From Salinivirgaceae bacterium (GTDB taxonomy: Bacteria > Bacteroidota > Bacteroidia > Bacteroidales > SZUA-534), in assembly GCA_017617355.1 (NCBI GenBank), contig JAFZWI010000149.1, positions 1 to 58,790 of the forward strand: DNA of 58,790 nucleotides, written 5' to 3'. Positions within the stretch are counted from its first letter, which is position 1; each line of letters starts with the position of its first letter. The position numbers were made by a program, and so were the translations under genes. This document shows, one piece after another, positions 2,642 to 19,200 of this stretch. The notes beneath the pieces are model-generated. The model did no database searches, was not told the origin of the DNA, and was given only the letters and a program-made list of their open reading frames with translations.

Positions 2642-4849
2642 CTACTTTATCGTGCCATACAGCTCGTCGCCTGAGAACGAGAACTGCATATAGGCTGACT
2701 GAGTGTTTGGCGTTGCCGATTTCGGTTCATTGCCAATCAGCATAACTGCCTCAGTCTTAGTGTTATCAATCTTCGACACCCACAACGGATATACCGACGA
2801 TTTGAACTCATAATGCTCACCGTCGAGCCAATTGCCATTGGCGTCAAACGAATATTGGAACATTCCAAACGAGCCGTTCAGGTTAACATCCTCGTTGTCA
2901 AGGCTTTTGATTTTACTGAATGCGCCAAACACATAGTATATGTCGTTGTTTTTAAGAATATTGACAAAATATCCGTTGAAATTCAAACTCTTGTTCCAAA
3001 GAGTCTTGAACTTTGAATCGAGGCCGACAATGCGTAAGTCACCATTCTCAACGGCAAATGGCTGATTGCTTTTCCCGCAGAACGCCACTATGTAAGAATC
3101 GCTGATATCGTTGACTATAAGTTTCTTGGGCAATGCCGCCACGCGTACCTCAACGTTTTGTTTGACATTGCCCGAACCGTCGAACAGCACCATGAAATTG
3201 CGGATAGTTCCATTCTTGGCAGTTGCAGTTACCACAGCGGCAACCTCGCCGTTTATTGGCGATGCCAAAAGACAGGTTCTGTCACCATCACCATTCTTCA
3301 ACACTTTGAGCCACTGTATATTATGAGCTGTATCGATGCTGGCCACAAACCCAAAACGCTCGCGCTTCTTAGTAACATACGTGCCCGACACTACCAGTTC
3401 CTTCTTTTCGGTAAACTCTTTATTATGAACAAAATATCCCGTTGTCCATATAGCATTTGGCGATACAAACTGGGCAAACAGCGTGTCACCATTATAGACA
3501 ATGGAATTACGATTGGCGGTTTTGCGGCGGCCCATATTCAAGACTGTGGCGGAATAATCGGAAACCGTCTTCTCGAACAATCGGTCGTTTTGCTGACGCT
3601 GCTGTTTTACATAATCGCGCAGGCCATTCTCTCCATTATAATGTTTCTCAAAAACGCAGCTGTATTTTTTTATTCCCTCCGGATTGATGTTCTTTTCGAA
3701 CACTTTCAACAACGAATCGGTATCATTACGTTTGGCGATAGCATTGTCGAAATAATCGTTAAGCGGATAATTGGCCCCCATCGACATAAAAGCAGTGTCG
3801 ATTTTATAAGAGACAAGCTGCTGCGCGTAGTTTATCTGCGACTGCTGATAGGTCAGCAACTGATTGGCCATAGAGGTGTTATCGTACTTCTGAATCTTGT
3901 TAAGCAGATAGAGCGACACCTTATAATTCGCAGGCACACCGCTGTCAATCTTGTTTTCGAGCTGCTGCATATAAATCTTATGCTGATTATCCAGCTCTTC
4001 GACATTCTTATACAAGTAACCGACCTCGCTCTCGCGCACTTCGTTGAACGTTTTTATCCACGAAGCAAAATCCCACAGCTGTATCTCTTCAGCAAGGAAA
4101 TTGGCTTGTGTAAGGCCATGCATACGATACACCACAATAGGGTTAAGCCGGTAATTGAACTTGTAGTTGAGCATCGGAAACTCAGTCAGCGACTTTTGCA
4201 GTTTTCCCAAATAGAACAACGTTGAGTCGAAATTGTGCTGCAGAGTTTCAAGTTGTTTCTCAAGCTTGTCATCAACCATAAAATAAAGGTCTTTGAGCTT
4301 ACTGTTGCGTTGGCATATATCATTAAAGATGCTTATACACTCGTTATAATTGCCTACCGCTTTGTACAAATTCTGCTTATTGTTGTCAAAATAGTTTTTA
4401 TAGATAGTCGCGTTCTTTAAATGAGTGTCAATATCTTCGCTTATCTCCAAAAAATCAGGTGTCTTGCCCTCTTTCGACTTATCAGTGTGTATCACATCAT
4501 CAAAAAACTGTCCATCCTGACGAGCAACCTTCTCATTAAAGTTGAATTTTGCCATTCCAAAATATAATTCCATATCATAAACAGCACGTTCGACCGCAGA
4601 CTCCTGCAAAAACGGATCGTAGCCAGCCACACGGCGCTCAAGGATGATGCCCAACTTATAAAGCGAAGCACAATGTGAGTTATTCTTCAAACGCGAAAAC
4701 TCCTGAAGCGTCTGATAAGCCTCATTATCAGACTGATGTCTAATACTTTCGTACACATCTTTATACTTGCCTTGCGACAATGCCGACAAAGCAAAGAACA
4801 AACCGAAAGCCAAGAATATATATCGTTTCATCGCACTTACATTTTTCAT
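2642..4849 (-). CDS. Large exported protein of unknown function, last gene of the CHAT operon
   Basis: This 735-aa protein is not recognised as a named family. A signal peptide (hydrophobic run FLAFGLFFALSAL, likely cleavage near SALSQ) predicts export. Residues about 30-440 are helical and coiled-coil rich (many K/E/Q/N, TPR-like spacing). Residues about 450-735 look like beta-propeller strands, with repeated patterns such as FGFVASIDTAHNIQW, NFMVLFDGSGN and RIVGLDSKFKTLW. The ATG at 4849 overlaps the stop of the upstream OmpA-like gene in an ATGA, implying translational coupling. A second in-frame ATG at 4831 (MKRYIF) would give a more typical signal peptide. Context suggests it acts in the periplasm or at the outer membrane with the OmpA-like and CHAT proteins. 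Confidence 0.75.
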   Translation of the reverse strand: MKNVSAMKRYIFLAFGLFFALSALSQGKYKDVYESIRHQSDNEAYQTLQEFSRLKNNSHCASLYKLGIILERRVAGYDPFLQESAVERAVYDMELYFGMAKFNFNEKVARQDGQFFDDVIHTDKSKEGKTPDFLEISEDIDTHLKNATIYKNYFDNNKQNLYKAVGNYNECISIFNDICQRNSKLKDLYFMVDDKLEKQLETLQHNFDSTLFYLGKLQKSLTEFPMLNYKFNYRLNPIVVYRMHGLTQANFLAEEIQLWDFASWIKTFNEVRESEVGYLYKNVEELDNQHKIYMQQLENKIDSGVPANYKVSLYLLNKIQKYDNTSMANQLLTYQQSQINYAQQLVSYKIDTAFMSMGANYPLNDYFDNAIAKRNDTDSLLKVFEKNINPEGIKKYSCVFEKHYNGENGLRDYVKQQRQQNDRLFEKTVSDYSATVLNMGRRKTANRNSIVYNGDTLFAQFVSPNAIWTTGYFVHNKEFTEKKELVVSGTYVTKKRERFGFVASIDTAHNIQWLKVLKNGDGDRTCLLASPINGEVAAVVTATAKNGTIRNFMVLFDGSGNVKQNVEVRVAALPKKLIVNDISDSYIVAFCGKSNQPFAVENGDLRIVGLDSKFKTLWNKSLNFNGYFVNILKNNDIYYVFGAFSKIKSLDNEDVNLNGSFGMFQYSFDANGNWLDGEHYEFKSSVYPLWVSKIDNTKTEAVMLIGNEPKSATPNTQSAYMQFSFSGDELYGTIK

Positions 4850-6906
4850 TTTCTATCAATTATTTTCACCTCGATACGGCGGTTTTGTGCCCTGTTGGCA
4901 TCTGAATTGTTTGGCACAATTGGATGCAATTCACCATAGCCTTTTGCCACAATAGCCGATTCCTTCACACCCTTTTCTTTCAGATACTTAACCGCCACTT
5001 GCGCCCTTTTTTGCGACAGAATCATATTATACCAGTCAGGGCCGACGTCGTCGGTATGAGCCGAAAGCTCAATACGCACATTATCGTTCAGTTTCATAAA
5101 CTCAATCAAGCGATTAAGCTCCTTGAACGATTCGGCATTCAGCTCGGCCGAGTTGGTCTCAAACGTAATGTTATTGAAAGTCATCTTTGTGTTCTTTGTC
5201 AGCAAATCGAGCTTAATGTTAAGTTTCTGCGTCTTGTTCGTTTTTCCGACATCGACTTTAGTGCTGCTGAAAGTGTAACCCTTTTTAGCGACATCTATTT
5301 CATAGCTGTCGCCTTCGCGCAACTCAACTATCAAGTTGCCGTCCTTGTCACGACGGGCCATAACTGTACGCGACTCGTTGCGACTGAGGTTTTTTACATT
5401 AACCAGCACAGAATCACCCTCTGCTCCCGCATCAATATCCAATATCATGACTTTTTTGGCTGGCGATAACTCAATATCCTCCTCAAACTCGTTGTAAAAT
5501 ACATCTGCAACGGCATCGAAATATATATCGCGAGGCTCAAAATGCTCACATTCAATATGAATCTTATAAATCTGGCCAATTTTTATCTGGCCTTTGTACC
5601 TGCCAGAGCCAACAGCCGACAAACTGTCTATAAGCAAATTGTTGGTTATTGAATCATAAACCGAGATTTTAGGCGACAACGGGCTGTATATCTCCTTGTC
5701 ATAAACATTCAAATAATAATTGATTGACGAAAAAATAGTCGTATCAAACTGTTTAACAACATCTTTTTCATAATACCCTGTTGTCACGTAATAATTAGAA
5801 TGTGAATATCCTGACTTTCCGTAGTCAATCTTATAGTTGCCGTTCTCGTTCAAATAAATCGAATACATCCCTTTAGCATTGGTTGTGTATTCGCCCAAAA
5901 CAGCCGATGTAATAGCATCGGTCACAACAATTTGCGCATCAACAGGCTGTTTTGTATCCAAATCGGTTATCTGACCCTTGAGCTGCATTTTGGCTTTCGG
6001 CTTATACCCAGCCGGAGCTGCAATCTGATATGTCTTGTCCGGTTGTTTTTTGGTTACTTTTCGCGGACTAGTGTTTTTTATAAATACCGACGCGTCGTTG
6101 TTCATTTTGGGCGACAAGTCGTTAAATTCGGTACTAAACTCATCAACATACTTCGGCATCTTCCAAACATTCTCGTAGATGTTCTCTGACAATACGCTCG
6201 TATAATAGATATTGAAGACATCGTCTGGCACTTTTTTACCCTCGCTTGTTGTATCGGGTCGCATTGATGAGAAGAAAAGGGTTTTCCCATCGGCGCAGAT
6301 GAAGGGCGTTTCCTGGCAACCTTCGTTAAAAGTCTGTGGAATAAACTGTGGACCAGTCCATACACCGTCTTTGTTTCTTCTATACATCACTATCTCCTTG
6401 CAGACAATGTCCTGTTTTTTTTGACTGGCTGCATCACGCTTCGGTCTAAGTAAGAAAATATAATTGTTGTCGGCAGATATTGACGGTGAAAATTCATCGT
6501 CGACCGAATTGACCGGTGCGGGAAATTTATCAAGACTTCCCCACTCGCCGTTTTCATATTTCAAGCTCATTATGTCGAACGACACACCAAAGTTTATATG
6601 AAACAGAAGCTGCGTGCCATCGTAGTTGAACGAAAAACCGCCTATTCCTTTTGGCGACTGCGGAATCAAATTGTCAAAGGCAGGTATGACCTGCGGATTG
6701 CTCCATTTTCCATTTTCAAATACCGATTCATACACGTTCTTTGTCTCGTTCTGCTCTCCAAGAAAAACGATTTTCTTTCCGTCATGAGTTATCGCCGCGT
6801 TTGTTACCGAACCCGCAAATTCGGGAAACAAATCAGTCTGCGGGAAAACGGCTAATGGCAAGACTGCCAATGCCAACAAGTATATAATGTGCTTTCTAAA
6901 CTTCAT
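4846..6906 (-). CDS. PD40 beta-propeller / OmpA-family peptidoglycan-associated protein
   Basis: This 686-aa protein has a signal peptide (cleavage near VFPQ). PD40/WD40-like propeller blades follow at about 25-310 (ITHDGKKIVFLG, FNYDGTQLLFHI, SPSISADNNYIFLL, FICADGKTLFFSS). Carboxypeptidase-regulatory-like beta domains lie at about 310-400 (KGMYSIYLNENGNYKIDY) and probably again near 470-560. An OmpA C-terminal domain occupies about 575-686, with the peptidoglycan-binding core AHTDDVG, then LSQKRAQVAVKYL, then NRRIEVKI. This order resembles PorE of P. gingivalis (TPR-PD40-CRD-OmpA) but without the N-terminal TPR part, which is supplied here by the separate upstream CHAT gene. It lies 10 bp after that gene and overlaps the next by 4 bp, so the three form an operon. 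Expected location: periplasm, anchored to peptidoglycan. Confidence 0.85.
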   Translation of the reverse strand: MKFRKHIIYLLALAVLPLAVFPQTDLFPEFAGSVTNAAITHDGKKIVFLGEQNETKNVYESVFENGKWSNPQVIPAFDNLIPQSPKGIGGFSFNYDGTQLLFHINFGVSFDIMSLKYENGEWGSLDKFPAPVNSVDDEFSPSISADNNYIFLLRPKRDAASQKKQDIVCKEIVMYRRNKDGVWTGPQFIPQTFNEGCQETPFICADGKTLFFSSMRPDTTSEGKKVPDDVFNIYYTSVLSENIYENVWKMPKYVDEFSTEFNDLSPKMNNDASVFIKNTSPRKVTKKQPDKTYQIAAPAGYKPKAKMQLKGQITDLDTKQPVDAQIVVTDAITSAVLGEYTTNAKGMYSIYLNENGNYKIDYGKSGYSHSNYYVTTGYYEKDVVKQFDTTIFSSINYYLNVYDKEIYSPLSPKISVYDSITNNLLIDSLSAVGSGRYKGQIKIGQIYKIHIECEHFEPRDIYFDAVADVFYNEFEEDIELSPAKKVMILDIDAGAEGDSVLVNVKNLSRNESRTVMARRDKDGNLIVELREGDSYEIDVAKKGYTFSSTKVDVGKTNKTQKLNIKLDLLTKNTKMTFNNITFETNSAELNAESFKELNRLIEFMKLNDNVRIELSAHTDDVGPDWYNMILSQKRAQVAVKYLKEKGVKESAIVAKGYGELHPIVPNNSDANRAQNRRIEVKIIDRK

Positions 6907-6916
6907 ACTTTATTTA

Positions 6917-9900
6917 TTAATCACCTATCACAATGAATGGAGCCCAATAATACGGCCTCGCATAGTTTTTCTCTGAAATTAACAACAATTTGGCTTTCTG
7001 CAGCAGCTCTGCATAGTTCAAATTGGCATTATCTTTGTCAAGCATCAGTTTGTAGAAAGCCACCATCATTTGCGAAGTTGAATTATCGGCGACCTTCCAC
7101 AACGAGACTAGCAGATTCTTGCTGCCCGCATATATGAAAGCCCTTGACAATCCGACTATTCCCTCTCCTTTCATTATTTTACCCAAACCTGTTTCACAAG
7201 CTGACAAAATAAGTAAATCGCACTTGAGTTTCAAACCATAAACATCTCCAGAATAAAGGATTCCTCCCTGACTGTCGTTCTTCAAACTGCTCAACTGCAC
7301 ACCCGAAAGCTCTGGCTTTTCGGAATTGACAAAGCCGTGTGTTGCCAAATGAATGTAGCGATAACGCGACACTGAATCGGCATTGAAATTCTGACGGCTG
7401 GCACATCCCCACAAGCAAGCTTTGGCTGGCTGCCCCGATTTCTGAAACATTGTGAATATGCTGCGCACCTCAGTTTCAGACGATGCTAAAGGTTCTAGTT
7501 TCCCATTGTTATTCACTTCAATATCAGTATAGTTGCGCTCATTTTTCTTGATTCGGCTATCGAGCAGAACACCTGAATACTTGCCAGTAGTGAATACAGG
7601 AGCCATGCCCAGCCATCCTTCAGTTCCATTATTTTTTTCACGGGTAATATCGCGATAATAAAGCGTGGCAGAGTAGGCGTAACTTACGGCATATTTTTTA
7701 ATCAAGAAATCGTATGATGAATAATCGTATATGGAACCAGACACCGTGCTTAACAAGAGACTTTCATAAGGAATTTGATTCAATGCGCCATCAGGAATAA
7801 TCACTAAATTCCGGATTCCTTCGCTTATGCTTTGGGGAAGCAACATGGTACATAACCGACGTGATATGTTACAATATTCCATCATCGCCTTTTGCGAAGT
7901 CTGAAGCATCGTATTTCTATATAGCTTGATTGAATCGGCAAGGTTGTTATTAGTGTTATTGGCATCAATATTAAAACTGTTGTTAGTTATGCTCATAACA
8001 TAAACACGCTCATCGCCAAGCACATACATCAACATCATCACATCTTGTTTCATTTTTTTCTGCAACTCGCCAAGTCCGATAGTATTATCAGCATATTTAA
8101 GTTGGTGGTATTCCGGGAAATCCTTTTCAAGCTGCTTAACAAAATCTTCATGCTTTTTATTGGCGGCAAGAAGACTGTCTCGCACCTGCGCTGAATTTTT
8201 CGGCTTTTCGGCAAGCATCTGCTCGAAATAGAGCACGTCCGCCGACAATCGGTTTTCCTTCTGCTGCAAATCGTATGGTATATTTGCCAATTGCATTGCA
8301 TCCTGCCCTACCATCGACTCAAGCAATGAGTTTGCCTTTCCTTTTTCAGCAAACAGGAAGGACTGCTCTTGATAGTAACGTTTTTTAGCCGCAGACAAAT
8401 CTTTGTATAACAACTGCATACAAACTTCCATTGCACCCTCGTAGCATTTCGACGCTATCTTACCAAGCTCAAGTTTGTCATTTTTAGTAAGAGCCGAGTG
8501 CCGCATCACGGCAACTATGTTGTCGCAAAGCTGGTAATGATTGAATGCGTATGTCAAATCTGCAATATTTGCCGACTGAGTATACTTTATAGTATAAGCC
8601 GAAGCCCTCAACAACAACGAGTTGACAAAAACGCTCTGGTCGTAATAGCCGGCTGCCTCAGGCAACGAGTCTTTCTTCGAATTGAAACGGTCGTGGTTCG
8701 ACTCAATTGCCAAACTATAGTTGAGAATAGCTTCATCGTATTTCCCCTGCTTCAGGTCGATATTGCCTATATTATTGTATATCAACGCCAAATATGGATG
8801 TTTGTCACCAAAAACGTTTTTATATAAATCGATCGAGCGATAATAGTAGAATTGAGCCGAATCGAGCTGGTTTGTCTGCAAGTAGGCCGTTGCAATGTTG
8901 TTGTTGGTATTGCCCACAAGCACCGGACTAACTGACTTGATGCCACCATAAATGTTGCTGGCTTTCAGATAACTGCCAATGGCCTCGTGTGTCTTCCCAG
9001 TCTTAAGGTAAACGTTACCAAGGTTGTTATATGCCTCCGCCACCTCAAGCGACTTTTCGCCATCATACTTCCGGGTTATATCGAGCGACTTTTGGAAATA
9101 GAATTGCGCAGGCCGGTAATCCTCAAGATTCTGATAGACAGTGCCTACGTTGTTATATATAGGCGCAAGCTTGCGGTCGGCTGCACTGTTCTGCTCCGTT
9201 TTAATAGCCAAAGCCTTGTTGTAATATACAAGAGCCAGCTCATACTGTCCCAATCGGTTATAGAGATTTCCCTTGTTTATGTACACATCGCTTACAGCCT
9301 GCGACGACTCGCCGCTAACTTTAACCAATATATCCTCGGAGGTGTCGAAGCACTCAGCCGACTTGTTGAAGTTGCCCAAACGGTCGTAAATGGTTCCTAG
9401 ATTGTTAAGCGTGTTGGCGTATTTGGCATTATCGGTTCCGTAGTTTTTTTGCTTGACATCAAGCGACTTGGTTGTATATGCCAAAGCCTTTTTATAATCA
9501 CCAGTTGCCTTGCAGTACAAACCGTAATTGTTGTAAAAAACATCGAGTCGGCTTTCCGGGATATTTCCATTTTCTATTATCCTCAAACATTTCTCATAAT
9601 TGGCGCCAGCATTGTCGTAATCGTGCAAGTTATACAAAGCGTTGGCATAATTGGCGTATAAATCAATCAGTTGCGGGTTTTGTTCACCCATAGCGGCCGA
9701 CTTAACCGACAGGCTGTAGGCGTAAATATCAACCGCACGTTTGAAGTCCTCGGCCGCAATATAAGCCGATGCAATATTCTCCCGTGCAGACAAAGTTCTT
9801 ACACTCGCGTCTCCAAACTGAGCTGACAATATATCGTACGCCGCCTGATAGCTGCGCGTTGCCGAATCGATTTTGTTGTTTTTAAAATACTCATTGCCCA

Positions 9901-11170
9901 TCAGTTCATGAATATTGGCCTCTAACTCAGCGTCAATTTTCGAAACGGCTTTCATTGCGCGCCTGTACTCTGCCAATGCCTTGTCCGACTGATTTTTAGC
10001 TGAATTGATATTGCCCAAGCCGCATACCGCCTGCGCATATATTACCGGATACTTCTGATTATCGACACTGGAAATCACTTGATTATAAATGCGTTCAGCT
10101 TGTTCGAGATTATCATTTTCGTAAACTTTAGCCATCTCGATACGGGCCTGATTCTCCAATTCAGGATTTTTCGACTCCGCTTCAACCTCGTTCCATTTCT
10201 TCAGTGCATCCTGCTTATTGTCAGCACTTTCCAATCGTCCATAAGCTAAAAGGATATTATAATATGTGTCATTTTTATCTTTTTGATATTCAAGAGCTTT
10301 TGACAGAAACGCCTTTGCTTTGACTGTATTCTCATCGGCTTCGTATAGCAGTCCCAGATAAAAACACGAACCGACATAAATGTCGTTTTTCAAGCCTGCC
10401 ACTTCACATAGGTTCTTTACCTCCTCAAAACTTGCCCTTGCCTCCTGGCGCGAACCTGCGCCATAGGATTTCTGTGCCTCTTTGAACTTCAGGTATGCCA
10501 CTGACTCTAAGTTGCTTACATCGGCATAATTAGCAGCCTTCTTGTAGTAATAATCCGACGAATCGGCTTTACCAACAGCCTGATAAATATCGCCAAGTGC
10601 CGAATAGGCCTGATAATAATCATCGTCACCGGCAACCGACAGACGCTCTTTCATGCCTATCGACCGCAAATGGCACCGTAGGGCGACATCGTGCTGCATA
10701 AGCGTTGCATACGAATTGCCGAGATTGAACAGACATACGGCCAACGCCTCCGAGTCGGCATCCCCCATAATGCTGGCGGCTTTCTTGTAATAGTAAACCG
10801 AACGGTCGGGCTCATTGAGTCCGTAATGCAACTCACCCAAAGTATGGAAAATGAGCATGCTAACCTCGGATGTGGAGTCAACCAGACCACGCGTGTCTTG
10901 AATGCTCTTTTCAAGAATCTCCCTGCCTTTTGCCAGATTGCCGATATTGTAATAAGCCGCGCCCGCCTGATAAGCGGCAATAAGATAGTTGTCGTAGAGT
11001 TTGCAGCAACGGAAACCGTCAGCAGCCTTTTCGAACAACTTCGCGGCATCGGCATCTTCGCGCTCCTGCGCCTGTGTGAACAATCTTACCGCCTCGTTCT
11101 CATTACAGCCCTGCCCGAATGAAAAAAATCCGACAGAAACAAACAATAAAACCAGAAGAACCCTACTCAT
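6917..11170 (-). CDS. Exported TPR-CHAT domain protein (caspase-like peptidase)
   Basis: This 1417-aa protein has an N-terminal signal peptide (LLVLLFVSVGFFSFGQG) and then more than fifteen tetratricopeptide repeats over about residues 20-860. Units such as YNNLGNVYLKTGKTHEA and YNNVGTVYQNLEDYRPA are very clear. A helical linker leads to a C-terminal CHAT domain from about 1090 (LVIIPDGALNQIPYESLLL). The caspase-type dyad is intact: His near 1278 in HLATHGF and Cys near 1325 in LSACETGLG. CHAT proteins are clan CD cysteine proteases, often switched on by partners that bind the TPR array. The signal peptide implies periplasmic or envelope action. There is no obvious own promoter; an intrinsic terminator stands just upstream, so expression may depend on read-through from the paralog pair. 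Its substrate is unknown. Confidence 0.9.
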   Translation of the reverse strand: MSRVLLVLLFVSVGFFSFGQGCNENEAVRLFTQAQEREDADAAKLFEKAADGFRCCKLYDNYLIAAYQAGAAYYNIGNLAKGREILEKSIQDTRGLVDSTSEVSMLIFHTLGELHYGLNEPDRSVYYYKKAASIMGDADSEALAVCLFNLGNSYATLMQHDVALRCHLRSIGMKERLSVAGDDDYYQAYSALGDIYQAVGKADSSDYYYKKAANYADVSNLESVAYLKFKEAQKSYGAGSRQEARASFEEVKNLCEVAGLKNDIYVGSCFYLGLLYEADENTVKAKAFLSKALEYQKDKNDTYYNILLAYGRLESADNKQDALKKWNEVEAESKNPELENQARIEMAKVYENDNLEQAERIYNQVISSVDNQKYPVIYAQAVCGLGNINSAKNQSDKALAEYRRAMKAVSKIDAELEANIHELMGNEYFKNNKIDSATRSYQAAYDILSAQFGDASVRTLSARENIASAYIAAEDFKRAVDIYAYSLSVKSAAMGEQNPQLIDLYANYANALYNLHDYDNAGANYEKCLRIIENGNIPESRLDVFYNNYGLYCKATGDYKKALAYTTKSLDVKQKNYGTDNAKYANTLNNLGTIYDRLGNFNKSAECFDTSEDILVKVSGESSQAVSDVYINKGNLYNRLGQYELALVYYNKALAIKTEQNSAADRKLAPIYNNVGTVYQNLEDYRPAQFYFQKSLDITRKYDGEKSLEVAEAYNNLGNVYLKTGKTHEAIGSYLKASNIYGGIKSVSPVLVGNTNNNIATAYLQTNQLDSAQFYYYRSIDLYKNVFGDKHPYLALIYNNIGNIDLKQGKYDEAILNYSLAIESNHDRFNSKKDSLPEAAGYYDQSVFVNSLLLRASAYTIKYTQSANIADLTYAFNHYQLCDNIVAVMRHSALTKNDKLELGKIASKCYEGAMEVCMQLLYKDLSAAKKRYYQEQSFLFAEKGKANSLLESMVGQDAMQLANIPYDLQQKENRLSADVLYFEQMLAEKPKNSAQVRDSLLAANKKHEDFVKQLEKDFPEYHQLKYADNTIGLGELQKKMKQDVMMLMYVLGDERVYVMSITNNSFNIDANNTNNNLADSIKLYRNTMLQTSQKAMMEYCNISRRLCTMLLPQSISEGIRNLVIIPDGALNQIPYESLLLSTVSGSIYDYSSYDFLIKKYAVSYAYSATLYYRDITREKNNGTEGWLGMAPVFTTGKYSGVLLDSRIKKNERNYTDIEVNNNGKLEPLASSETEVRSIFTMFQKSGQPAKACLWGCASRQNFNADSVSRYRYIHLATHGFVNSEKPELSGVQLSSLKNDSQGGILYSGDVYGLKLKCDLLILSACETGLGKIMKGEGIVGLSRAFIYAGSKNLLVSLWKVADNSTSQMMVAFYKLMLDKDNANLNYAELLQKAKLLLISEKNYARPYYWAPFIVIGD

Positions 11171-11180
11171 AGCTTATCCT

Positions 11181-11216
11181 AAAAAAAATGCCCGGCTGCA
11201 ATCACAATCGGGCATT
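11181..11216 (-). terminator. Intrinsic terminator between the FecR-like pair and the CHAT gene
   Basis: On the minus strand AATGCCCG (11216-11209) pairs with CGGGCATT (11194-11187) across a 14-nt loop and runs directly into eight T residues. It lies after the 250-aa gene and only 11 nt before the CHAT start codon, so it probably limits transcription of the CHAT operon. Confidence 0.8.
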
Positions 11217-11236
11217 CCCATTATCAAAATAACACG

Positions 11237-11989
11237 TTATAATCTTAAAATATTTTTAATCCAAGCCTCGACAGCATCTTCGGTTGTCTTTCCATAAAAC
11301 TCATTCACAAAAGAAGTTACTGCGGCCACTTTGTCTTCACGCGAGCCTTTTACATTATCGAACACCGCGCTTATTTCATCTTTGAACGAGATGTCGGCAT
11401 AAACCGGAGTGAACTCGGTTTTGTTGCTCTCGCCAAACTCATCGTTGTAGGTAAGCGTAACTTTAGCCGGCTTGTCAAGAATCATGCAGTTAGGCAAAAC
11501 CAGTTTTCCGTTCCTATACTCCATGCGCTCAGAATAATCTTTGCTGCCTGTATTGTAGCTGACAACAAAATAGCCGTCATCGTTAATGCGGAGTTTCTCA
11601 TTGTCGATTTTGAGGCTGTCGTAACCCGAAACAAAAATATCGCCGAAGTAATACTCAATTATTTCTGACGGTTGGGCGGGCAAGGCGACCCTTACACTCA
11701 TGCTGTTCGACATTGGGAGGAACTGCGGACCGGAATTATCGTTGCGGGCGCTCAACACCTTGCAACCTGTTTCTTTGTTGACAACAAAGGCACGCGAGTA
11801 TGATGTCTTAAACTCGAAATTCTCGTTATCAAGAATGTTTTCGCCAACGGCAAGCAAGCCGCCGGTCTTGACACGCTGTATCTCACCCTGCACCTTCACC
11901 ACTTTGTAGTTCTTCTGTGCGACAGATGCCAATGGAATCAACATCAATGAAACAACTATCGCCTTAATGCTTATTCCCGTGATTTTCAT
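11237..11989 (-). CDS. Exported FecR-like beta protein, paralog 2
   Basis: This 250-aa protein has a signal peptide (VSLMLIPLASVAQ). The N-terminal half reads YKVVKVQGEIQRVKTGG, then LAVGEN, FEFKTSYSRAFVVN and CKVLSARN, which resembles the FecR-type periplasmic beta fold; this is a pattern judgement, not a database hit. The C-terminal part (about 195-250) is helical and ends in FVNEFYGKTTEDAVEAWIK. It is a close paralog of the next upstream gene along its whole length, including a 58-nt stretch with a single mismatch. No sigma factor or anti-sigma transmembrane region is present, so it is not a canonical FecR regulator. It is followed by a strong terminator and then by the CHAT gene, so a partner or substrate role is possible. 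Confidence 0.75.
   Translation of the reverse strand: MKITGISIKAIVVSLMLIPLASVAQKNYKVVKVQGEIQRVKTGGLLAVGENILDNENFEFKTSYSRAFVVNKETGCKVLSARNDNSGPQFLPMSNSMSVRVALPAQPSEIIEYYFGDIFVSGYDSLKIDNEKLRINDDGYFVVSYNTGSKDYSERMEYRNGKLVLPNCMILDKPAKVTLTYNDEFGESNKTEFTPVYADISFKDEISAVFDNVKGSREDKVAAVTSFVNEFYGKTTEDAVEAWIKNILRL
11395..11452. repeat. Direct repeat copy B in the paralog pair
   Basis: This 58-nt stretch matches 12256-12313 with one mismatch (a synonymous C/T in the codon before the shared EFTPVY segment). It encodes part of the conserved TYNDEFGESNKTEFTPVYA region and points to recent duplication or gene conversion. Confidence 0.85.
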
Positions 11990-12033
11990 TTCAATAGTTT
12001 TTTGTTTTTAATTGGGCTAACCTTTCAAAGCAC

Positions 12034-12074
12034 TTTGGTTTCCGCGCTTTGCGACGCAAAATGCGGAAACCAAG
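12034..12074 (-). other. Long intergenic hairpin between the two paralogs
   Basis: TTGGTTTCCGC (12035-12045) is perfectly complementary to GCGGAAACCAA (12063-12073). A second helix inside (TTTGC/GCAAA around GAC) continues the structure after a 2-nt mismatch. No T-run follows on the minus strand, so it is not a standard terminator. It may stabilise or delimit the upstream mRNA. Confidence 0.7.
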
Positions 12075-12097
12075 ACTGCTGTTGAAGTTGATAGAAA

Positions 12098-12856
12098 TTA
12101 GTAGTTCAGGTTCTCTTTAATCCAAGTGTCTACTGCGTCTTCAGTGGTCTTGCCATAGAAATCGTTGACAAACGATGATGATGCAGTAACCTTAGCATCG
12201 CGTTTGCCTTTGATTGTCGAGAATATCAACTTAATTTCATCTTTCAAAGCGTCGCCGGCATAAACCGGAGTGAATTCGGTTTTGTTGCTCTCGCCAAACT
12301 CATCGTTGTAGGTGAGTATCACTTTAGTCGGTTTGTCGTTAACCAGACTCTGAGGCAGAACAAGTTTTCCGTTTGCATACTCCATACGCTCCGATACTTT
12401 TTTGCCGTTAGCATTGTAGCTAATAACAAAGTAGCTGTCATCGCCAATAGCAAGTTTTTCACTGTCGATTTTCAGACTGTCGTGACCCGAAACAAAAATA
12501 TCGCCGTAGTAATACTCAATAACTTCAGACGGCATTGTCGGAACCGACGCTCTGACACTCATGCTGTTTGATGTTGGAAGGAACTGCGGGCCGGAGTTGT
12601 CGTTGCGGGCGCTCAATACCACGCATCCGCTTTCCTTATTTACAACCACAGCACGCGAATAATCTGTTCTGAAAGCAAAGTTCTCGTTGCTTACCACATC
12701 TTCTCCTACTGAAAGAAGATTGCCTGTTTTCACTCTCTGTATTTCGCCCTGCACTTTAACCACTTTGTAGTTAATATTCTTCTGTGCGCTTGATGCTAAT
12801 GGCAATAACATCAACGAAATAGCTGCCACCTTAATGCCTGTTACAATGTTTTTCAT
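12098..12856 (-). CDS. Exported FecR-like beta protein, paralog 1
   Basis: This 252-aa protein has a signal peptide (ISLMLLPLASSAQ). It has the same layout as its downstream paralog: a FecR-like region (YKVVKVQGEIQRVKTGN, LSVGED, FAFRTDYSRAVVVN, VVLSARNDNSGPQFL), a middle beta region, and a helical C-terminus ending FVNDFYGKTTEDAVDTWIK. Both copies keep SARNDNSGPQFLP, YGDIFVSG or FGDIFVSG, and DEFGESNKTEFTPVY. It is first in the block, 30-odd bp downstream of a TACATTTG promoter element, and separated from the SusCD locus by a terminator. The function is unknown. Location is predicted as periplasm or outer-membrane associated. Confidence 0.75.
   Translation of the reverse strand: MKNIVTGIKVAAISLMLLPLASSAQKNINYKVVKVQGEIQRVKTGNLLSVGEDVVSNENFAFRTDYSRAVVVNKESGCVVLSARNDNSGPQFLPTSNSMSVRASVPTMPSEVIEYYYGDIFVSGHDSLKIDSEKLAIGDDSYFVISYNANGKKVSERMEYANGKLVLPQSLVNDKPTKVILTYNDEFGESNKTEFTPVYAGDALKDEIKLIFSTIKGKRDAKVTASSSFVNDFYGKTTEDAVDTWIKENLNY
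12256..12313. repeat. Direct repeat copy A in the paralog pair
   Basis: This is the partner of 11395-11452: 58 nt with one mismatch, inside the coding region of paralog 1. Confidence 0.85.
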
Positions 12857-12892
12857 AATTAAGATGTTTTAGTTAATAATTTTAAAATATGA

Positions 12893-12900
12893 CAAATGTA
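12893..12900 (-). promoter_or_regulatory. Candidate -7 element for the FecR-like/CHAT block
   Basis: The minus strand reads TACATTTG, an exact TAnnTTTG match 37 bp before the ATG at 12856. The -33 region is not a clear TTTG. It is the only promoter-like site found for the whole five-gene block. Confidence 0.5.
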
Positions 12901-12984
12901 AGAATTATTTAAGTCGGTATGATAATGCGATAAGAAATAGACCATTTTTTTGACGAACAGAAAAACGTACTTCTTGTAAGGAAC

Positions 12985-13014
12985 AAAAAAAAGCGGCCCG
13001 TAAGCCGCTTTTTT
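12985..13014 (-). terminator. Terminator of the SusCD locus
   Basis: AAGCGGC and GCCGCTT form a stem around CCGTAA, flanked by A- and T-runs on both sides. On the minus strand it follows the stop codon of the last lipoprotein gene at 13037 and ends in TTTTTTTT. It separates the SusCD locus from the FecR-like/CHAT block. Confidence 0.85.
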
Positions 13015-13036
13015 AATATAAACCTATGATTGATAA

Positions 13037-13846
13037 TCAATCATCATTTGTAAATCCTGTGTAACGGTAACCTGAAACTCGATAGTTTTTAAACTGATAA
13101 TACTCGGGTGTGTACACCACATTGCCAAGGGAATCTACTGTATAGTCGTCGTCAAACTCAACGTAAAATACAATTGAATCAGCCGGCATTCCGCTTGGAG
13201 TTGTTGCAGCACCTTTCAATATTTTACCATCCGTAATGGTTATATTACAAAAGTTTTCTATGTCATCCTCACCTTTTTTTACTCCAACTTCATAGTCAAG
13301 GCCCTGACACTTCACAAAATATCCTGCGGATATAGTATCGTCTGCGACTTCGTAATATTCAGCTAATAACTTATCCAAACTATCTTTCTTTATCAAGCCG
13401 TCATAGTACTGTTTAACACCGACTTGATAGCTTTGCCACATTTCCGCATCAAACTTTCCCGCATGAAAATAATAATTGTTGGTTGATGTTGATTCGGATG
13501 GATCATATGTGGTTGCGTATATATACTTTTCCACATCCGGCATTGAGAATGTTAATGACGACGTACTGCAATCAACTTTAGACTTAAAGGTCCAGAAGTT
13601 TTTCAAATCGTCAATAAACATAACGTCTTGATCATTATCAGACGTATTGTAAGTAAGAATCAGAAAATTATTGTAAAATTCAAAAAACTCCGCTCCTGTG
13701 TAAACAACATTGCCGTTTTCGTCAACTGCGTCAACATTAACATACCATTGACCTGACAATGACTCGGTAGCAGTGCTGCCTATTTCATTTTTCTCGCACG
13801 ATGCGAACAGAAGCACCGCCACGAATAAATAAACTATCCTTTTCAT
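13037..13846 (-). CDS. SusCD-associated lipoprotein, possible lipid-binding (lipocalin-like) domain
   Basis: This 269-aa lipoprotein has a lipobox ending FASC (Cys17), followed by EKNE. It starts with the pattern LSGQWYVNVDAVDENGNVVY typical of the lipocalin-like Lipid_bd proteins that sit last in many SusCD loci. The remainder is acidic and beta rich with many Tyr and Asp residues. It is the fourth gene of the operon, 10 bp after the DUF5012-like lipoprotein. By comparison with the B. thetaiotaomicron BT2261-2264 set it would be an outer-membrane accessory lipoprotein of the SusCD complex. Composition is noticeably AT rich, as is common in these loci. The fold assignment is tentative. Confidence 0.7.
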   Translation of the reverse strand: MKRIVYLFVAVLLFASCEKNEIGSTATESLSGQWYVNVDAVDENGNVVYTGAEFFEFYNNFLILTYNTSDNDQDVMFIDDLKNFWTFKSKVDCSTSSLTFSMPDVEKYIYATTYDPSESTSTNNYYFHAGKFDAEMWQSYQVGVKQYYDGLIKKDSLDKLLAEYYEVADDTISAGYFVKCQGLDYEVGVKKGEDDIENFCNITITDGKILKGAATTPSGMPADSIVFYVEFDDDYTVDSLGNVVYTPEYYQFKNYRVSGYRYTGFTNDD

Positions 13847-13856
13847 AATTAATCAA

Positions 13857-14708
13857 TTAATTACCTGATTCATTTTTTCCGGCTTCATAGCCATCCTCAT
13901 ATCCTTTTTTGTAGTCTTCGGATTTTTCTTCAACTTCACGGACTTGCTGCGCTACAACAGTCATTTGCACTACCTCCTCTGCATAACTAACAAAATAAGA
14001 AAGTGCACCTGTCTTTGCGTCATAATGTGCATTCTCCATATAATCAAGAGCATCGCCCCATGCCGGGACTGTACTTGTTAACAATATCAAATCTCCACTT
14101 GCATCCAAATAAACGATTCCTCCTGCTTTAAAATCATATTGACCGTCATTGGCGTCATTATAACCGCGAATTTGATCATACCATTTAGCTAACAAGTCGT
14201 TGCACCTATAGAACCCTGGCAGTATTTCAGTAAATTTTATACTTATCTTGCCATCAAAACCATAATTGAGGGCAGCCTCTGCAAATGTCCACCCCCTAGA
14301 TTCGTACTTTGATTGTTCCATATCAATGGTATATTCACCTTCAAGCGATATTTCCAAATCGGGATTATACACATAAATAGTACGTTTAGTTATGTCCGTG
14401 ACATCATCTGAATTAACATAACGATATACTATAGAGTAAATACCAGGGTTATCTGTGTCAACACTCTCCACAGGCTCTCCATCTATATCCAGTATTTGAT
14501 ACGCGATTTCACTTGTCACATCTTTTCCATTGCATATTGCAGAAAACGATGGAGCAAACTCATCACCTAACGAAACATAATCAGAATAAGCAAAATCATA
14601 CTTAGGATAGTATGTAACGTTTGTCTTGTTTTCGGTTTCTTTTTCGCAACTCGACAGCGAAACTACCGATGCGGCAAGAGCTATCAACAATAAAAATCTA
14701 TTTTTCAT
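13857..14708 (-). CDS. SusCD-associated surface lipoprotein, DUF5012/BT2262-like
   Basis: This 283-aa lipoprotein has a signal sequence ending LSSC (Cys21). Residues about 30-118 form an immunoglobulin-like domain of the DUF5011 type (SLGDEFAPSFSA, GIYSIVYRYVNSDD, TKRTIYVYNP). The C-terminal part (about 120-255) resembles the BT_2262-like domain (LEGEYTIDMEQ, FTEILPGFYRCNDLLAKWY). The tail YKKGYEDGYEAGK is a short charged repeat. It is the third gene of the SusCD locus, 34 bp after SusD. It probably extends substrate capture at the cell surface. It was identified from layout and motif memory, so the family name is likely but not certain. Confidence 0.72.
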   Translation of the reverse strand: MKNRFLLLIALAASVVSLSSCEKETENKTNVTYYPKYDFAYSDYVSLGDEFAPSFSAICNGKDVTSEIAYQILDIDGEPVESVDTDNPGIYSIVYRYVNSDDVTDITKRTIYVYNPDLEISLEGEYTIDMEQSKYESRGWTFAEAALNYGFDGKISIKFTEILPGFYRCNDLLAKWYDQIRGYNDANDGQYDFKAGGIVYLDASGDLILLTSTVPAWGDALDYMENAHYDAKTGALSYFVSYAEEVVQMTVVAQQVREVEEKSEDYKKGYEDGYEAGKNESGN

Positions 14709-14742
14709 TTTCTTCAGTTTTTATTAAACCATTAACTGCTGC

Positions 14743-16236
14743 TTATTTACCCCAAAATACAGGTTCGGCATAACCTGGGAATTCAGGAGCGTTGCTATTA
14801 CGAGCTGATGAACTCTCAGCGTATGGGAAACGTTCCAACACTTTGTTAGCTCCCAATTCTCCAAAATATTGTATCGGTGTGTACAAAGTACCTGGCTTAT
14901 AAAGACCCGGACTATATACGTCGTTAACTACATTGTAAATATCCTCTCCCTTTACATCTCCAAAAGTTGGATAATCCAAACGACGAAGTTCGCACCATGC
15001 CTCATAATCGTTTGTTCCGGCAAGCGCAATCCATTTAGCAATACCAATTGATTTTTTGTAGTTATCCTTATCGTAAGGATTCTTGGCAATGTTGGCTTCA
15101 GCTCCGGCAACACCAAACTCATCGAACGATGCGGTAATTGCAGCTGCATAATGCTCAGCGGCTGCATCATGTGAGCCTTTCTTTGCATAATACTCGGCAA
15201 GGAAGAATTCAATCTCGGGCACTGTAATCAAATAAACCGGCATGTCGTACGATGCTTTCGGGCGACACCAATAACCTGTTTTGTAGATTTTTGTAGTTGC
15301 GAAATTAGTTCCTGAAACTCCACCAGTGAAATTGCCTGATTCATTTTTCTCACAGAAAGCCGCCAAACGCGGATCTGTGTAAGAATCAGTCTGCATTGTT
15401 CCTACTAGAGCAATATTAGCAATAACATTGATTTGTGTTGAACCCCATTTTGTTGAGAACTCCTCTGCATAATACGGGCTCATTTTTCCTGCCTCATCTG
15501 ACCAACAACCTTTTAACGCTACATCATCTATTGGGAAATTGCCCTCAGCAACCAAAGCGTCGAGTTTCGACTGTACATCAACAACACCGCTCATACGCAT
15601 AAGCATTTTCAGTTTCAATGCGTTAGCAAACTGAATCCAAGCAGAAGCGCGTTCGTCGGGGAACAAGAAATTAGTACAAACCAAATCGTTTTCAGAAACT
15701 TTGCTCAAAGCGTTATCGATTTCTGCCAAGACTCCTTCATAGATGGTTTTTCCATCATCATATTTCGGGGTTGGATTAGTTGCATCAAGAGCCTCGGTAT
15801 AAGGCAGTTCACCATAGCAATCAACCATTGCTTGATAAGTGAAGGCACGAATTACGGTTGCAGCCAAATAAGTTCCCCAAGCCTCTTCCTCTTCAGCCTT
15901 GCTCATTATTGTTTTCAGATTATTAAGAACCTGCAAGTTAAGTTGTCTGTATGCCAAACTACTACTACGAGTTGCAGACATTGTAAATTTGGAATAATCC
16001 AAATAGTTGCTTGTGCCAAATGCCTGAGCGAAGTGCTGCGAATAATAACCACCTACAATACGAAGATAGTTTCCATAACTTGAAGCCAAGTTCATTTCCG
16101 TACCTGGGAAAATCAAGTCTGCAGTCAGATCCTTTTCGCTTGGCGCTGTTGGATCATAGTTTATATCAAGATAATCGTCGCAAGAGTTAAATACGAATCC
16201 CAATGCAACTGCTGATATTAATAAGTATTTCTTCAT
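14743..16236 (-). CDS. SusD/RagB-family outer-membrane lipoprotein (SusD-like_2)
   Basis: This 497-aa lipoprotein has a lipobox ending FNSC (Cys19), followed by DDYLDINYDPTAPS, the standard SusD mature start. The sequence matches the SusD-like_2 group (FPGTEMNLASSYGNYLRI, AATVIRAFTYQAMVDCYGELPY, PEIEFFLAEYYAKKG) with the helical TPR-like scaffold expected. SusD proteins form the lid over the SusC barrel and bind the incoming oligosaccharide or peptide. The gene starts 19 bp after susC. No glycoside hydrolase or sigma/anti-sigma gene is nearby, so this is not a classic glycan PUL. Confidence 0.92.
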   Translation of the reverse strand: MKKYLLISAVALGFVFNSCDDYLDINYDPTAPSEKDLTADLIFPGTEMNLASSYGNYLRIVGGYYSQHFAQAFGTSNYLDYSKFTMSATRSSSLAYRQLNLQVLNNLKTIMSKAEEEEAWGTYLAATVIRAFTYQAMVDCYGELPYTEALDATNPTPKYDDGKTIYEGVLAEIDNALSKVSENDLVCTNFLFPDERASAWIQFANALKLKMLMRMSGVVDVQSKLDALVAEGNFPIDDVALKGCWSDEAGKMSPYYAEEFSTKWGSTQINVIANIALVGTMQTDSYTDPRLAAFCEKNESGNFTGGVSGTNFATTKIYKTGYWCRPKASYDMPVYLITVPEIEFFLAEYYAKKGSHDAAAEHYAAAITASFDEFGVAGAEANIAKNPYDKDNYKKSIGIAKWIALAGTNDYEAWCELRRLDYPTFGDVKGEDIYNVVNDVYSPGLYKPGTLYTPIQYFGELGANKVLERFPYAESSSARNSNAPEFPGYAEPVFWGK

Positions 16237-16255
16237 TTCAGTAATCTCCTATCCT

Positions 16256-19200
16256 TTAGAATTTAGCACTAAGGTTCAAACCAAAAATACGGCAAGCCGG
16301 GTTAGTGTACAATTCACCAAACTGTGTGGCCAAATCGCCAAAAGACTCCTGATCAACTGTTGTCGTTTCCGGATCAATGTAATGGTTTGATTTAGGTGTC
16401 CATGTAAATACATTGTTACAGAAGAGTGAAAATGTAACATCAGTAAGCTTTATTGGATCCACCCATGCTTGTGGCAGAGAATACGCCAAACTGATATTAC
16501 GCAATTTAGCATATGAGCGGTCAATCAGATAGGCCTCGCCTCCATGTCCCCAGCCATAATCGTTGAAGTAACTTTGGAAACTACTGTTTGCCAAATACAT
16601 GGGGACAGTATTTTCCGCATATACACCATCTTCAACTTCAACTACCGAATTAGGTATCACAAACGGATTGCGGCCGTTGTATGTTGTTTCTGTGTCATTT
16701 CCAGTAAACTGCATCAAGTTTTTAGTACGTGAGAACATATATCCTCCATAACGGATATCAAGCGCAGCGCTAAGTGTGATTCCGTAAGCGGTCAGTGATG
16801 TAGTTACACCTCCAGTCCATTTATTGTTAATTGATTTGCCGGTTGACTCCACCTTGCTTCCCAAAACGATATTGCCGTTCTCATCAACAATCGTCTTACC
16901 ATCTTCTGTTTGTGTTGGCAGATAAGTGTAGAATGTACCGAGTTCAAGTCCCTTTTCAGCATACATATAAACAGCATCATTTCCTGCAGAGAAACGATAA
17001 ATAGAAATGCGGCCATCCTCAAGACTCTCCGGCATTTCCAAAACTTTGTTCTTGTTCATTGCGAAATTGAAATCAACATCCCAACGCAATTTGTCATTTC
17101 GTACCGGAGTAGTGTTAATCAATAACTCAAATCCGCGGTTGCGCACTTTTCCGACATTTGTAACCTCTGCAGAATATCCACAAGCCGGGTCAACCGGAAG
17201 TTCGAATATCTGGTCATCAGTTGTACGGTTGTAGAACGAAGCGTCGACACCAAGACGGTTTTTAAAGAATTGCAGGTTCAAACCAAACTCAATCTCTTTT
17301 GTCATCTCAGGTTTCAATTTAGTGCTACCTGCAGTTGACGATGTAACAAAAGCATTTTTTCCGGCTATTGGGAAATCTGCGATTCTGCTTTCGTAGTAAC
17401 CGTCAGCTGAAGCCTGCTCGTAACTAATATTGGTACGATATGGATCAGTGTCATTACCTGTTTTACCAAAAGCAAAACGAGCTTTACCGAACGAGAGCAC
17501 ATCGTTTTGTGGAAGCACTTTCGTGAAAATCCAACTCAAAGTGGCACCCGAATAGAAGTAACTATTGGCATCAATAGGCAAAGTTGACGACCAATCGTTA
17601 CGAGCCGAGACCTCCAAATAAACCATATCACCCCATCCAAAAGTGACATCACCGAACAAACCAATTGCACGGCGTTTCTCTTGTCTCTCGTTCAAAAGGT
17701 TTTTGGTTGCTCCATTGCTCAACTGCCAGAAGCCAGTTGCAATGCCTAACTCGTCGGTACGACCTGTTGTGCGAGTGAAGTACCTCTCATTGACGTTTGT
17801 GCCTATGTTTAAATTAACATCGAATTTGTCATCAAGATACCTGTCGGCAAAATTCACAATAACATCATGGTTAAGTTCATACGTACGAGAATAACGAGTA
17901 TAAACATATCCGCTTTGATTCATGCTAGATGGTGCGTAACCATAGTCTTCATTAATAAGAGCGTCATCCAGCTTAATTTCGGGCTTTCCAACTTTCTTAT
18001 CATAATCAGAATAATCAAATCCATAGCGGTAAGTCAGTGTCAATTGCTCGATTGGTGTTACATCCAATTGCAATTTTCCAAACACCTGTTTAGCATCGAT
18101 ATGCATATAATTGTGTTTCAATGCCCAATAAGGGTTTGTGATACCATATGGTGTGTAATATGCTTCAGGAGTGTTGAATGCACTCGACAAATCCTCCATA
18201 TCAACAATGGAAATATCACGCGGCATTTCAAGCAAACCATCGATCACTGTCGTACCCTGATCGTTCTCTACGGCATCGGTTTTAGAGCGAGCAAAACTGA
18301 TGTTAGACGAAAGTTTGAACCAACGGCCTTCATCGTATGTACTTACTAACGATATCACATTACGTTTGAATTTATCGTTATCTGAAGGCATTATACCATC
18401 GTCGCTCGTATAACCATAAGCCAAACGGTATGTGAAATTGTTGTCTTCAGAGGCTGCACTCAAAGCTACGTTATGATTGTTCGACCAGCCAACTTCAAAG
18501 AAATCCTTAACATTGTTTTTCTTAGCCGAATATTCGTGAATATACTGCTGATAGTTCCAAATTGGACCATAAACTTGCATTGAGCCATCCAATTTCGGAC
18601 CCCACGAACCATTTTCTATATATGTCTGCTTGCCATTCCAACCTTGTCCGAATTCGTTTTGAAATTCTGGCAGTACTGAAACAGCATATGCCGACACATT
18701 ACCTGAGTATTCGATTGTGAAGTTCTTATCTGCGCCTTTTTTACCTTTCTTGGTGTTAATAATGATGACACCATTGGCAGCACGCGAGCCGTAAAGAGCA
18801 GTTGCTGCAGCGCCTTTAAGAACGGTCATTGATTCAATATTTTCAGAAGGAATATTTGAGATACCTGATGTGGTCATGTTTTTACCACCAGTACTTGAAG
18901 TGAAATTGTTACCCATCGGAACTCCATCGACAACATACAGCGGTTGGTTACTACCATTGATTGAGCTGAAGCCGCGGATAACGATGTTGCTGACAGAACC
19001 TGGGTCAGACGATGTGCTGTTGACCTGCACACCAGCCACACGGCCCGAAAGAGCGTTGGCCACGTTGGTTGAACGGGCTGTCACAATGTCGTCGCTCTTA
19101 ACTGTGGTGGCAGCGTAACCCAGCGTCTTCTCGGCACGAGTGATACCCATTGCTGTTACCACAATCTCCTCCATGCCAATCGACTCAGGGTCGAGAGTAA

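Follow-up and report, generated by a model that had tools for sequence, protein, structure and literature searches.

Caspase-fold proteases and a substrate-like small protein recur together in probably exported gene clusters of Bacteroidales

We analysed a 58,790-nt stretch of DNA, hereafter the window, from a Salinivirgaceae bacterium of the order Bacteroidales. At positions 2642-12856 it carries five genes, for two small paralogous proteins, a protease with TPR repeats and a CHAT domain, an OmpA-type protein and a large protein of 735 amino acids (aa). We refer to the two small paralogs as SML (SML252 and SML250) and to the 735-aa protein as HEL (HEL735). Briefly, a cluster that encodes probably exported proteins, among them a caspase-like protease and a substrate-like small protein, is conserved in gut and rumen bacteria. 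Related clusters add a membrane receptor. Together, the protease, the substrate-like protein and the receptor suggest that signals from outside are passed inward via proteolysis. Judged from sequence, a functional link between SML and caspase-fold proteases is highly probable. That the cluster is a module for proteolytic signalling in the envelope, in which SML is the substrate, is a serious candidate explanation that stops short of being probable.

All five open reading frames (ORFs) of the initial annotation were confirmed, and all are on the minus strand. SML252 (12098..12856, 252 aa) is followed by SML250 (11237..11989, 250 aa); the two are 71% identical, as befits the close paralogs originally described. 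Next are the TPR-CHAT protease (6917..11170, 1417 aa), the PD40-CPD-OmpA protein (4846..6906, 686 aa), a probable peptidoglycan or outer-membrane anchor, and HEL735 (2642..4849). The tight coupling noted for these last three genes holds, with a 10-bp gap between CHAT and OmpA and a 4-bp overlap (ATGA) between OmpA and HEL735. The N-termini of all five proteins look like signal peptides. Note that this, like every such reading below, was judged by eye and not by program. The CHAT domain (PF12770) spans residues 1103-1417 of the protease (8.3e-54, 183 bits against a cut-off of 24), and many other Pfam matches are to TPR models. The catalytic His and Cys, said earlier to be intact, are indeed present, in the motifs HLATHG and SACETG. 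All ten CHAT domains aligned contain H[LI]ATHG and SACETG. The CHAT of the window is the one PF12770 match in its genome, which is 82% complete at 2.56 Mb in 157 contigs, with the window as contig 74.

The block is conserved in the family, where HEL occurs in 14 of 20 genomes, our own included. In ten of ten loci (the window and L016-L024) the order is SML, in one or two copies, then CHAT, OmpA and HEL on one strand. Note that these are the HEL-bearing loci of one genus, plus G007 from another genus. The nearest named relatives are eight Salinivirgaceae metagenome-assembled genomes (MAGs) and one uncultured Bacteroidetes MAG. The eight come from stomach compartments of water buffalo, yak and sheep, from horse faeces, and from one 'RUG' bin. 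The loci of the nine named MAGs are the same contigs as L016-L024 and add names, not independence. In the other four HEL-bearing family genomes, a protease of a different caspase-fold family, Peptidase_C14 (hereafter C14), replaces CHAT. Here, C14 and SML adjoin OmpA-HEL, either in a single run of C14-SML-OmpA-HEL (L027 and L028) or converging with OmpA-HEL (L025 and L026). Two of these four C14 proteins, from L025 and L027, were scanned with Pfam and are TPR-Peptidase_C14 (1.4e-22 and 3.2e-20). All 14 family HEL loci have a caspase-fold protease and SML, with two protease families between them. The initial interpretation would have been weakened by a neighbourhood that is not conserved, and this first ground for refuting it does not apply.

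The association recurs in other families of the order. A profile, A1, built from 21 SMLs, matched 1 of 395 phylum genomes (our own) and 32 of 291 order genomes, and gave 32 SML matches outside the family. CHAT or C14 is encoded near SML in 11 of these 32 (L076, L124, L127, L128, L130, L132, L133, L142, L145, L147 and L148). The gaps range from overlap to 6.4 kb. A signal-peptide-like start was seen in nine of the 11; the exceptions are L124, with a broken CHAT frame, and L132, where the start lies outside the stretch. With protease coordinates taken solely from the C14 and CHAT matches of the genome searches, a protease occurs within 8 kb of SML in 9/32 cases, against 0.83 expected (P 5e-8), and within 2 kb in 6/32 by hand count, against 0.21 expected (P 5e-8). 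These statistics treat placement as uniform and the matches as independent, which those from related genomes are not, and the 8-kb limit was set by the size of the fetched stretches. A second type of neighbour, a SpoIIE phosphatase with a beta-propeller sensor (propeller-SpoIIE), is near SML in 11/32 (L076, L123-L128, L132, L138, L139 and L142; E 7e-88 to 4e-136). These calls compare the sensor part with a profile of 17 HEL-adjacent proteins, for which the next best non-orthologue scores 3e-48, among partial loci fetched for paralogs. A protease, a propeller-SpoIIE or both accompany 16 of the 32 matches. Note that the counts of 11/32, 16/32 and 6/32 within 2 kb, the 6/10 and 5/10 of the next paragraph, and the 21 and 39 of 42 HEL loci given below, together with all signal-peptide readings, were made by eye from tables.

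A larger draw from the order (393 genomes) added nine genomes and ten new SML matches. A CHAT or C14 protease is nearby in 6/10 (L170, L171, L172, L179, L178 and L174), and five of the six have a signal-peptide-like start. L170, L171, L172 and L179 have CHAT, with one protein of each Pfam-confirmed. L178 has a C14 protein, two genes from SML, lacking the signal-like start. L174 has a WD40 protein with a C14 part that extends as far as the end of the contig; His and Cys are visible with a purpose-built profile, and its C14 part is not among the 25 Pfam matches listed. Propeller-SpoIIE is present in 5/10 (L170, L171, L172, L179 and, in part, L174). Three of these later loci are arranged CHAT-CHAT-SML-SpoIIE or SML-SpoIIE-CHAT on one strand. 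With both sets pooled, 17/42 SML matches outside the family have CHAT or C14 nearby, and 16/42 have propeller-SpoIIE. Two side observations concern these neighbourhoods. The genome G065 has 18 CHAT matches; several lie in short or broken frames, among them the match close to SML in L124. In L129, L131 and L128, TPR-SpoIIE-type proteins, with a sensor other than a propeller, adjoin SML; in L129 and L131, the majority of the visible starts resemble signal peptides.

The key residues of the C14 domains are intact. Aligned C14 domains (L025-L028, L130, L133, L142, L145, L147 and L148) keep the His-Gly and DACxSG motifs and an upstream Asp in 10/10; the His-Cys dyad and both Asp positions of orthocaspases are present throughout. 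PF00656 exceeds its cut-off in the eight of the ten that were scanned with Pfam, and L026 and L028 were recognised by the purpose-built profile only. Near SML, the architectures are TPR-C14, WD40-C14 and Glucodextran_B-C14. PMC6426788 and PMC5756287 state that basic residues fit between two Asp in the metacaspase pocket of T. brucei, and that non-caspase C14 enzymes prefer, or cleave after, Arg or Lys via an acidic pocket. We read the C14 Asp columns here as those two pocket residues. Orthocaspases and metacaspases are the known enzymes that, in relatives, take the place of CHAT beside SML. They differ in that the relatives' C14 proteins have signal-peptide-like starts, TPR or WD40 fusions and an adjacent putative substrate. 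Furthermore, the protease of the window is itself CHAT, not C14, and the basic P1 pockets considered here are those of C14 domains.

What might be cut is suggested by SML. SML252 has only a sub-threshold Pfam match, to DUF4998 (E 0.032), and neither SML250 nor HEL735 has any at E up to 0.1. The label 'FecR-like', initially given to the pair, was not confirmed; searches with 21 SMLs, at E up to 10 and with filters that drop weak matches, listed no FecR family. An AlphaFold model of SML252, from 16 sequences, has a mean predicted local distance difference test (pLDDT) score of 69 and a predicted template modelling score of 0.67. It consists of beta strands (29-94), a low-confidence stretch (95-117, pLDDT below 50), further strands to about residue 200, and C-terminal helices (202-250). 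Weak immunoglobulin (Ig)- or FnIII-like matches cover residues 110-200, approximately. The low-confidence stretch, predicted to be disordered, contains Arg102 (MSVR-A; codon 12551..12553, minus strand), equivalent to Arg100 of SML250 (MSVR-V; codon 11690..11692, minus strand). In 51 aligned SMLs, including 16 from the genus and G007, this linker column has 48 Arg, one Lys and two gaps. Outside those 16, Arg is found in 32/35. In the later-drawn set it is found in 9/10, with Gln in the other. No other column of stretch 95-117 exceeds 36/50; neighbouring columns vary and indels flank the Arg. The next residue is Ala, Gly or Ser in 42/49 SMLs (the 49 include the one with Lys). We propose that SML is cut after this residue because the Arg is near-invariant in a low-pLDDT stretch and because C14 domains keep the Asp positions associated with basic P1 residues. 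Such cleavage is a tentative prediction, which we hold at rather less than probable. The near-invariant Arg and the recurrent CHAT or C14 neighbourhood strengthen the earlier suggestion of the small paralogs as candidate substrates or regulators.

We now consider the OmpA-HEL pair and the receptor. In the 686-aa protein, Pfam recognises OmpA (PF00691, 4.5e-19), CPD (PF13620, 3.2e-08) and PD40 (PF07676, 1.1e-06) domains. Among envelope proteins of PD40-CPD-OmpA type, it partially matches PorE (NF052230) and CHU_0125 (NF053607), mainly in the C-terminal part, yet misses both NCBIfam cut-offs (110 bits against 600 and 147 against 620) and so is a member of neither family. The OmpA-like domain of PorE was crystallised with a peptidoglycan fragment, according to the accessible text of PMC7192894. 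By homology, it is plausible that the OmpA domain here tethers its protein to the cell wall. The structure model of HEL735 has helices to about residue 439 and strands at 471-735; at low confidence (mean pLDDT 55), it agrees with the first description of this protein as helical and propeller-like. HEL was found in 30/295 sampled genomes of the order, with up to three candidates scored per genome. Of 42 HEL loci, 39 have an OmpA gene beside HEL and 21 have a SpoIIE-type phosphatase in the stretch. Propeller-SpoIIE is a neighbour of OmpA-HEL in certain genomes and of SML in others. SpoIIE and Reg_prop domains are present in all four receptors scanned (L018, L056, L058 and L076); three have Y_Y_Y, once below cut-off. 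The C-terminal part of the L058 receptor matches SiaA-type SpoIIE phosphatases (NF038263) at 200 bits, under the cut-off of 700. The N-terminal part differs from that type, being Reg_prop/Y_Y_Y; note that L058 was the one HEL-adjacent receptor scanned in this comparison.

Individual HEL loci vary. In L076, two CHATs and SML are divergent from the OmpA-HEL pair. In L062, a C14 gene (3.1e-11; 6.8e-05 with the purpose-built profile) lies about 6.5 kb from the OmpA gene. L079 (G056, 3653-10124 and 61-846) encodes a 796-aa C14 protein, with a signal-peptide-like start, directly before the genes for a WD40-OmpA protein and HEL. Beyond HEL come one further gene and then another C14 protein, and nothing there is labelled SML. 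In the N-terminal part of the 796-aa protein, a PorE/CHU_0125-like stretch scores weakly with NCBIfam, at about 48 bits where the cut-offs are 600 and 620, and looks like a piece of an OmpA-type protein joined to a caspase. In L056 (G075, 6261-13887), the type IX secretion system (T9SS) motor gene gldM (NCBIfam TIGR03517, 395 bits) stands directly before genes for a PAS-containing propeller-SpoIIE and for a HEL homologue, and there is no OmpA gene.

These components can be assembled into a working model. SML, the OmpA protein and HEL735 would be exported together with a caspase-fold protease, which is TPR-CHAT here and TPR-C14 or WD40-C14 in relatives. The OmpA protein would be anchored in the cell wall or outer membrane and, with HEL735, would position or gate the protease. 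A stimulus, read by the TPR or propeller parts, would activate the protease to cut. SML would then be cleaved after its near-invariant Arg, which lies in the flexible linker that joins the N-terminal beta part to the Ig-like/helical part. The resulting fragment, or the loss of intact SML, would be read by the periplasmic beta-propeller of a propeller-SpoIIE phosphatase, predicted to span the membrane. Finally, the phosphatase would alter a phosphorylation switch in the cytoplasm. We consider it possible, more doubtfully than for cleavage itself, that signalling runs through SpoIIE. The complete scheme, in which interchangeable exported TPR-CHAT, TPR-C14 or WD40-C14 enzymes cut a dedicated substrate at a fixed Arg, and propeller-SpoIIE senses the product, is on balance unlikely to be right in every part. 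If true, it would extend caspase-type proteolysis, paired with a receptor phosphatase and a dedicated substrate, to signalling across the envelope. Thanks to the linker Arg and the swap of protease type, whether SML is the substrate could be addressed directly with just two soluble proteins.

Several observations weigh against this model, and some favour SML being a regulator or adaptor that is not cleaved. Such a protein would bind the protease or the SpoIIE propeller, as inhibitor or scaffold, and the Arg would be a structural or contact residue. The SML-bearing genomes G081, G111 and G277 have no C14 or CHAT match; G081 and G277 keep the linker Arg and G111 has Lys. G277 does have a TPR gene near SML, interrupted where the contig ends, which may be a truncated protease. 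Similarly, no protease is near the five SMLs in which Phe or Tyr follows the Arg (L134, L140, L141, L175 and L176). Hence, the linker Arg may have another role, for instance a salt bridge to Glu207, which is equally conserved (49/50). The Phe/Tyr subgroup, for which the fetched stretches also lack SpoIIE, may have another job. Conversely, a purely structural Arg sits uneasily in a stretch of variable length and low pLDDT, with a small residue after it in most SMLs and with C14 domains that have the Asp positions of a basic P1 pocket. We regard a non-cleaved SML as somewhat unlikely. Other difficulties concern linkage. Neither protease nor propeller-SpoIIE accompanies SML in 16/32 and, later, 4/10 matches, where the 16 include a doubtful match in G204 and some stretches end at contig ends. 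The later set, moreover, was found with the same A1 profile, Arg column included; it is new sequence, not a blind sample. Outside the family, a protease is beside OmpA-HEL in just 2/28 HEL loci (L076 and L079). The best SpoIIE match of the window genome, one of 17, is on another contig, although it is full length and 58% identical to that of L018. A physical link to SpoIIE is likewise absent in G012, G013 and G018.

Two further explanations leave SML with a lesser part or none. The protease could target outer-membrane, T9SS or foreign proteins, in quality control, maturation or defence, with SML, OmpA and HEL as accessories and SpoIIE nearby through common regulation. The sub-cut-off resemblance of the OmpA protein to PorE and CHU_0125 fits this, as does the position of SpoIIE and the HEL homologue directly downstream of GldM in G075. 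However, outside the family SML neighbours a protease more often than HEL-OmpA does, and no T9SS or defence genes were recognised among the five proteins and seven flanking proteins scanned. A UvrD-type helicase in the flank matches GajB-like models and reads as housekeeping UvrD/PcrA. No gasdermin was named among the scanned proteins, with no search aimed at gasdermins made. We consider other targets improbable. Alternatively, envelope genes might have stayed together within a clade without shared function, given that the five-gene order was seen in one genus and G007 only, and that these relatives are not independent. The swap of CHAT for C14 beside SML, the recurrence in other families of the order, and the 6/10 later matches near a protease already disfavour clade-level synteny alone, to which we give very little credence.

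The closest working analogue is Csx29-Csx30 (Craspase, type III-E CRISPR), where a TPR-CHAT protein is likewise encoded with a dedicated multi-domain partner. This system acts inside the cell. In contrast, the N-termini in the window are signal-peptide-like, SML has no significant Pfam match, and the linked output is a SpoIIE phosphatase. Association with Cas7-11 and a CRISPR RNA, as for Csx29, was not seen: no Cas/Csx models matched the five proteins and seven flanking ones (window 302-21897) in PADLOC, and no CRISPR RNA families reached gathering score within the window. The accessible text of PMC10028731 describes Csx29-Csx30 as an RNA-activated CRISPR system with a dedicated substrate. The partner of Csx29 is cut within its C-terminal domain, at a small flexible loop, and is linked to a sigma factor. 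SML has a low-confidence linker with a near-invariant Arg as its candidate cleavage site. A second precedent is DegS-RseA, whose protease fold differs from the caspase fold. According to the same text (PMC10028731), this is an envelope protease that turns an outside signal into a cytoplasmic response. At the window locus, by comparison, no anti-sigma factor was identified, and the SpoIIE link is by neighbourhood only. No exported caspase-like module of this layout was among the titles listed from the literature searched, a search that mostly did not extend to subscription papers.

The model also involves the relative amounts of SML and protease. Between SML250 and CHAT, a hairpin followed by a T tract (11181..11218, minus strand), a feature absent from the initial annotation, is a candidate partial terminator or attenuator. 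The hairpin, with its T-rich tail, is present in 10/10 sequences (the window and L154-L162). Of 13 consensus pairs, 12 form in all ten and the outermost fails in one; there is one two-sided change, in one sequence, and the variation is too small for covariation proof of the fold. Both in the window and in the whole genome, the hairpin core has a single match. A simple terminator scan of the window did not list this hairpin. In the window, CHAT starts 10 nt past the T tract, which would leave little room for its own promoter. Hence, CHAT would depend on read-through and the hairpin would keep SML more abundant than the protease. Upstream of SML252, TACATTTG (12893..12900, minus strand) resembles, by eye, the Bacteroidetes -7 element, for which the consensus is TAnnTTTG. 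By the same reading, TAnnTTTG is in 9/10 upstream regions compared. At 12987-13014, a terminator-like hairpin separates an upstream lipoprotein-type gene from SML252, which is consistent with SML having its own promoter.

Pfam identifies the seven flanking proteins as PAP2, an EptA/B-type sulfatase, two surface lipoprotein-type proteins, SusD, a SusC/TonB receptor and the UvrD helicase. Just upstream of the block (13037-19477) is a SusC/SusD pair, then a BT_2262-like surface protein and a Lipid_bd protein. Downstream of HEL (1010-2572) is the EptA/EptB-type phosphoethanolamine transferase (PF08019, PF00884), and ORFs of similar length occupy this position in L016 and L017.

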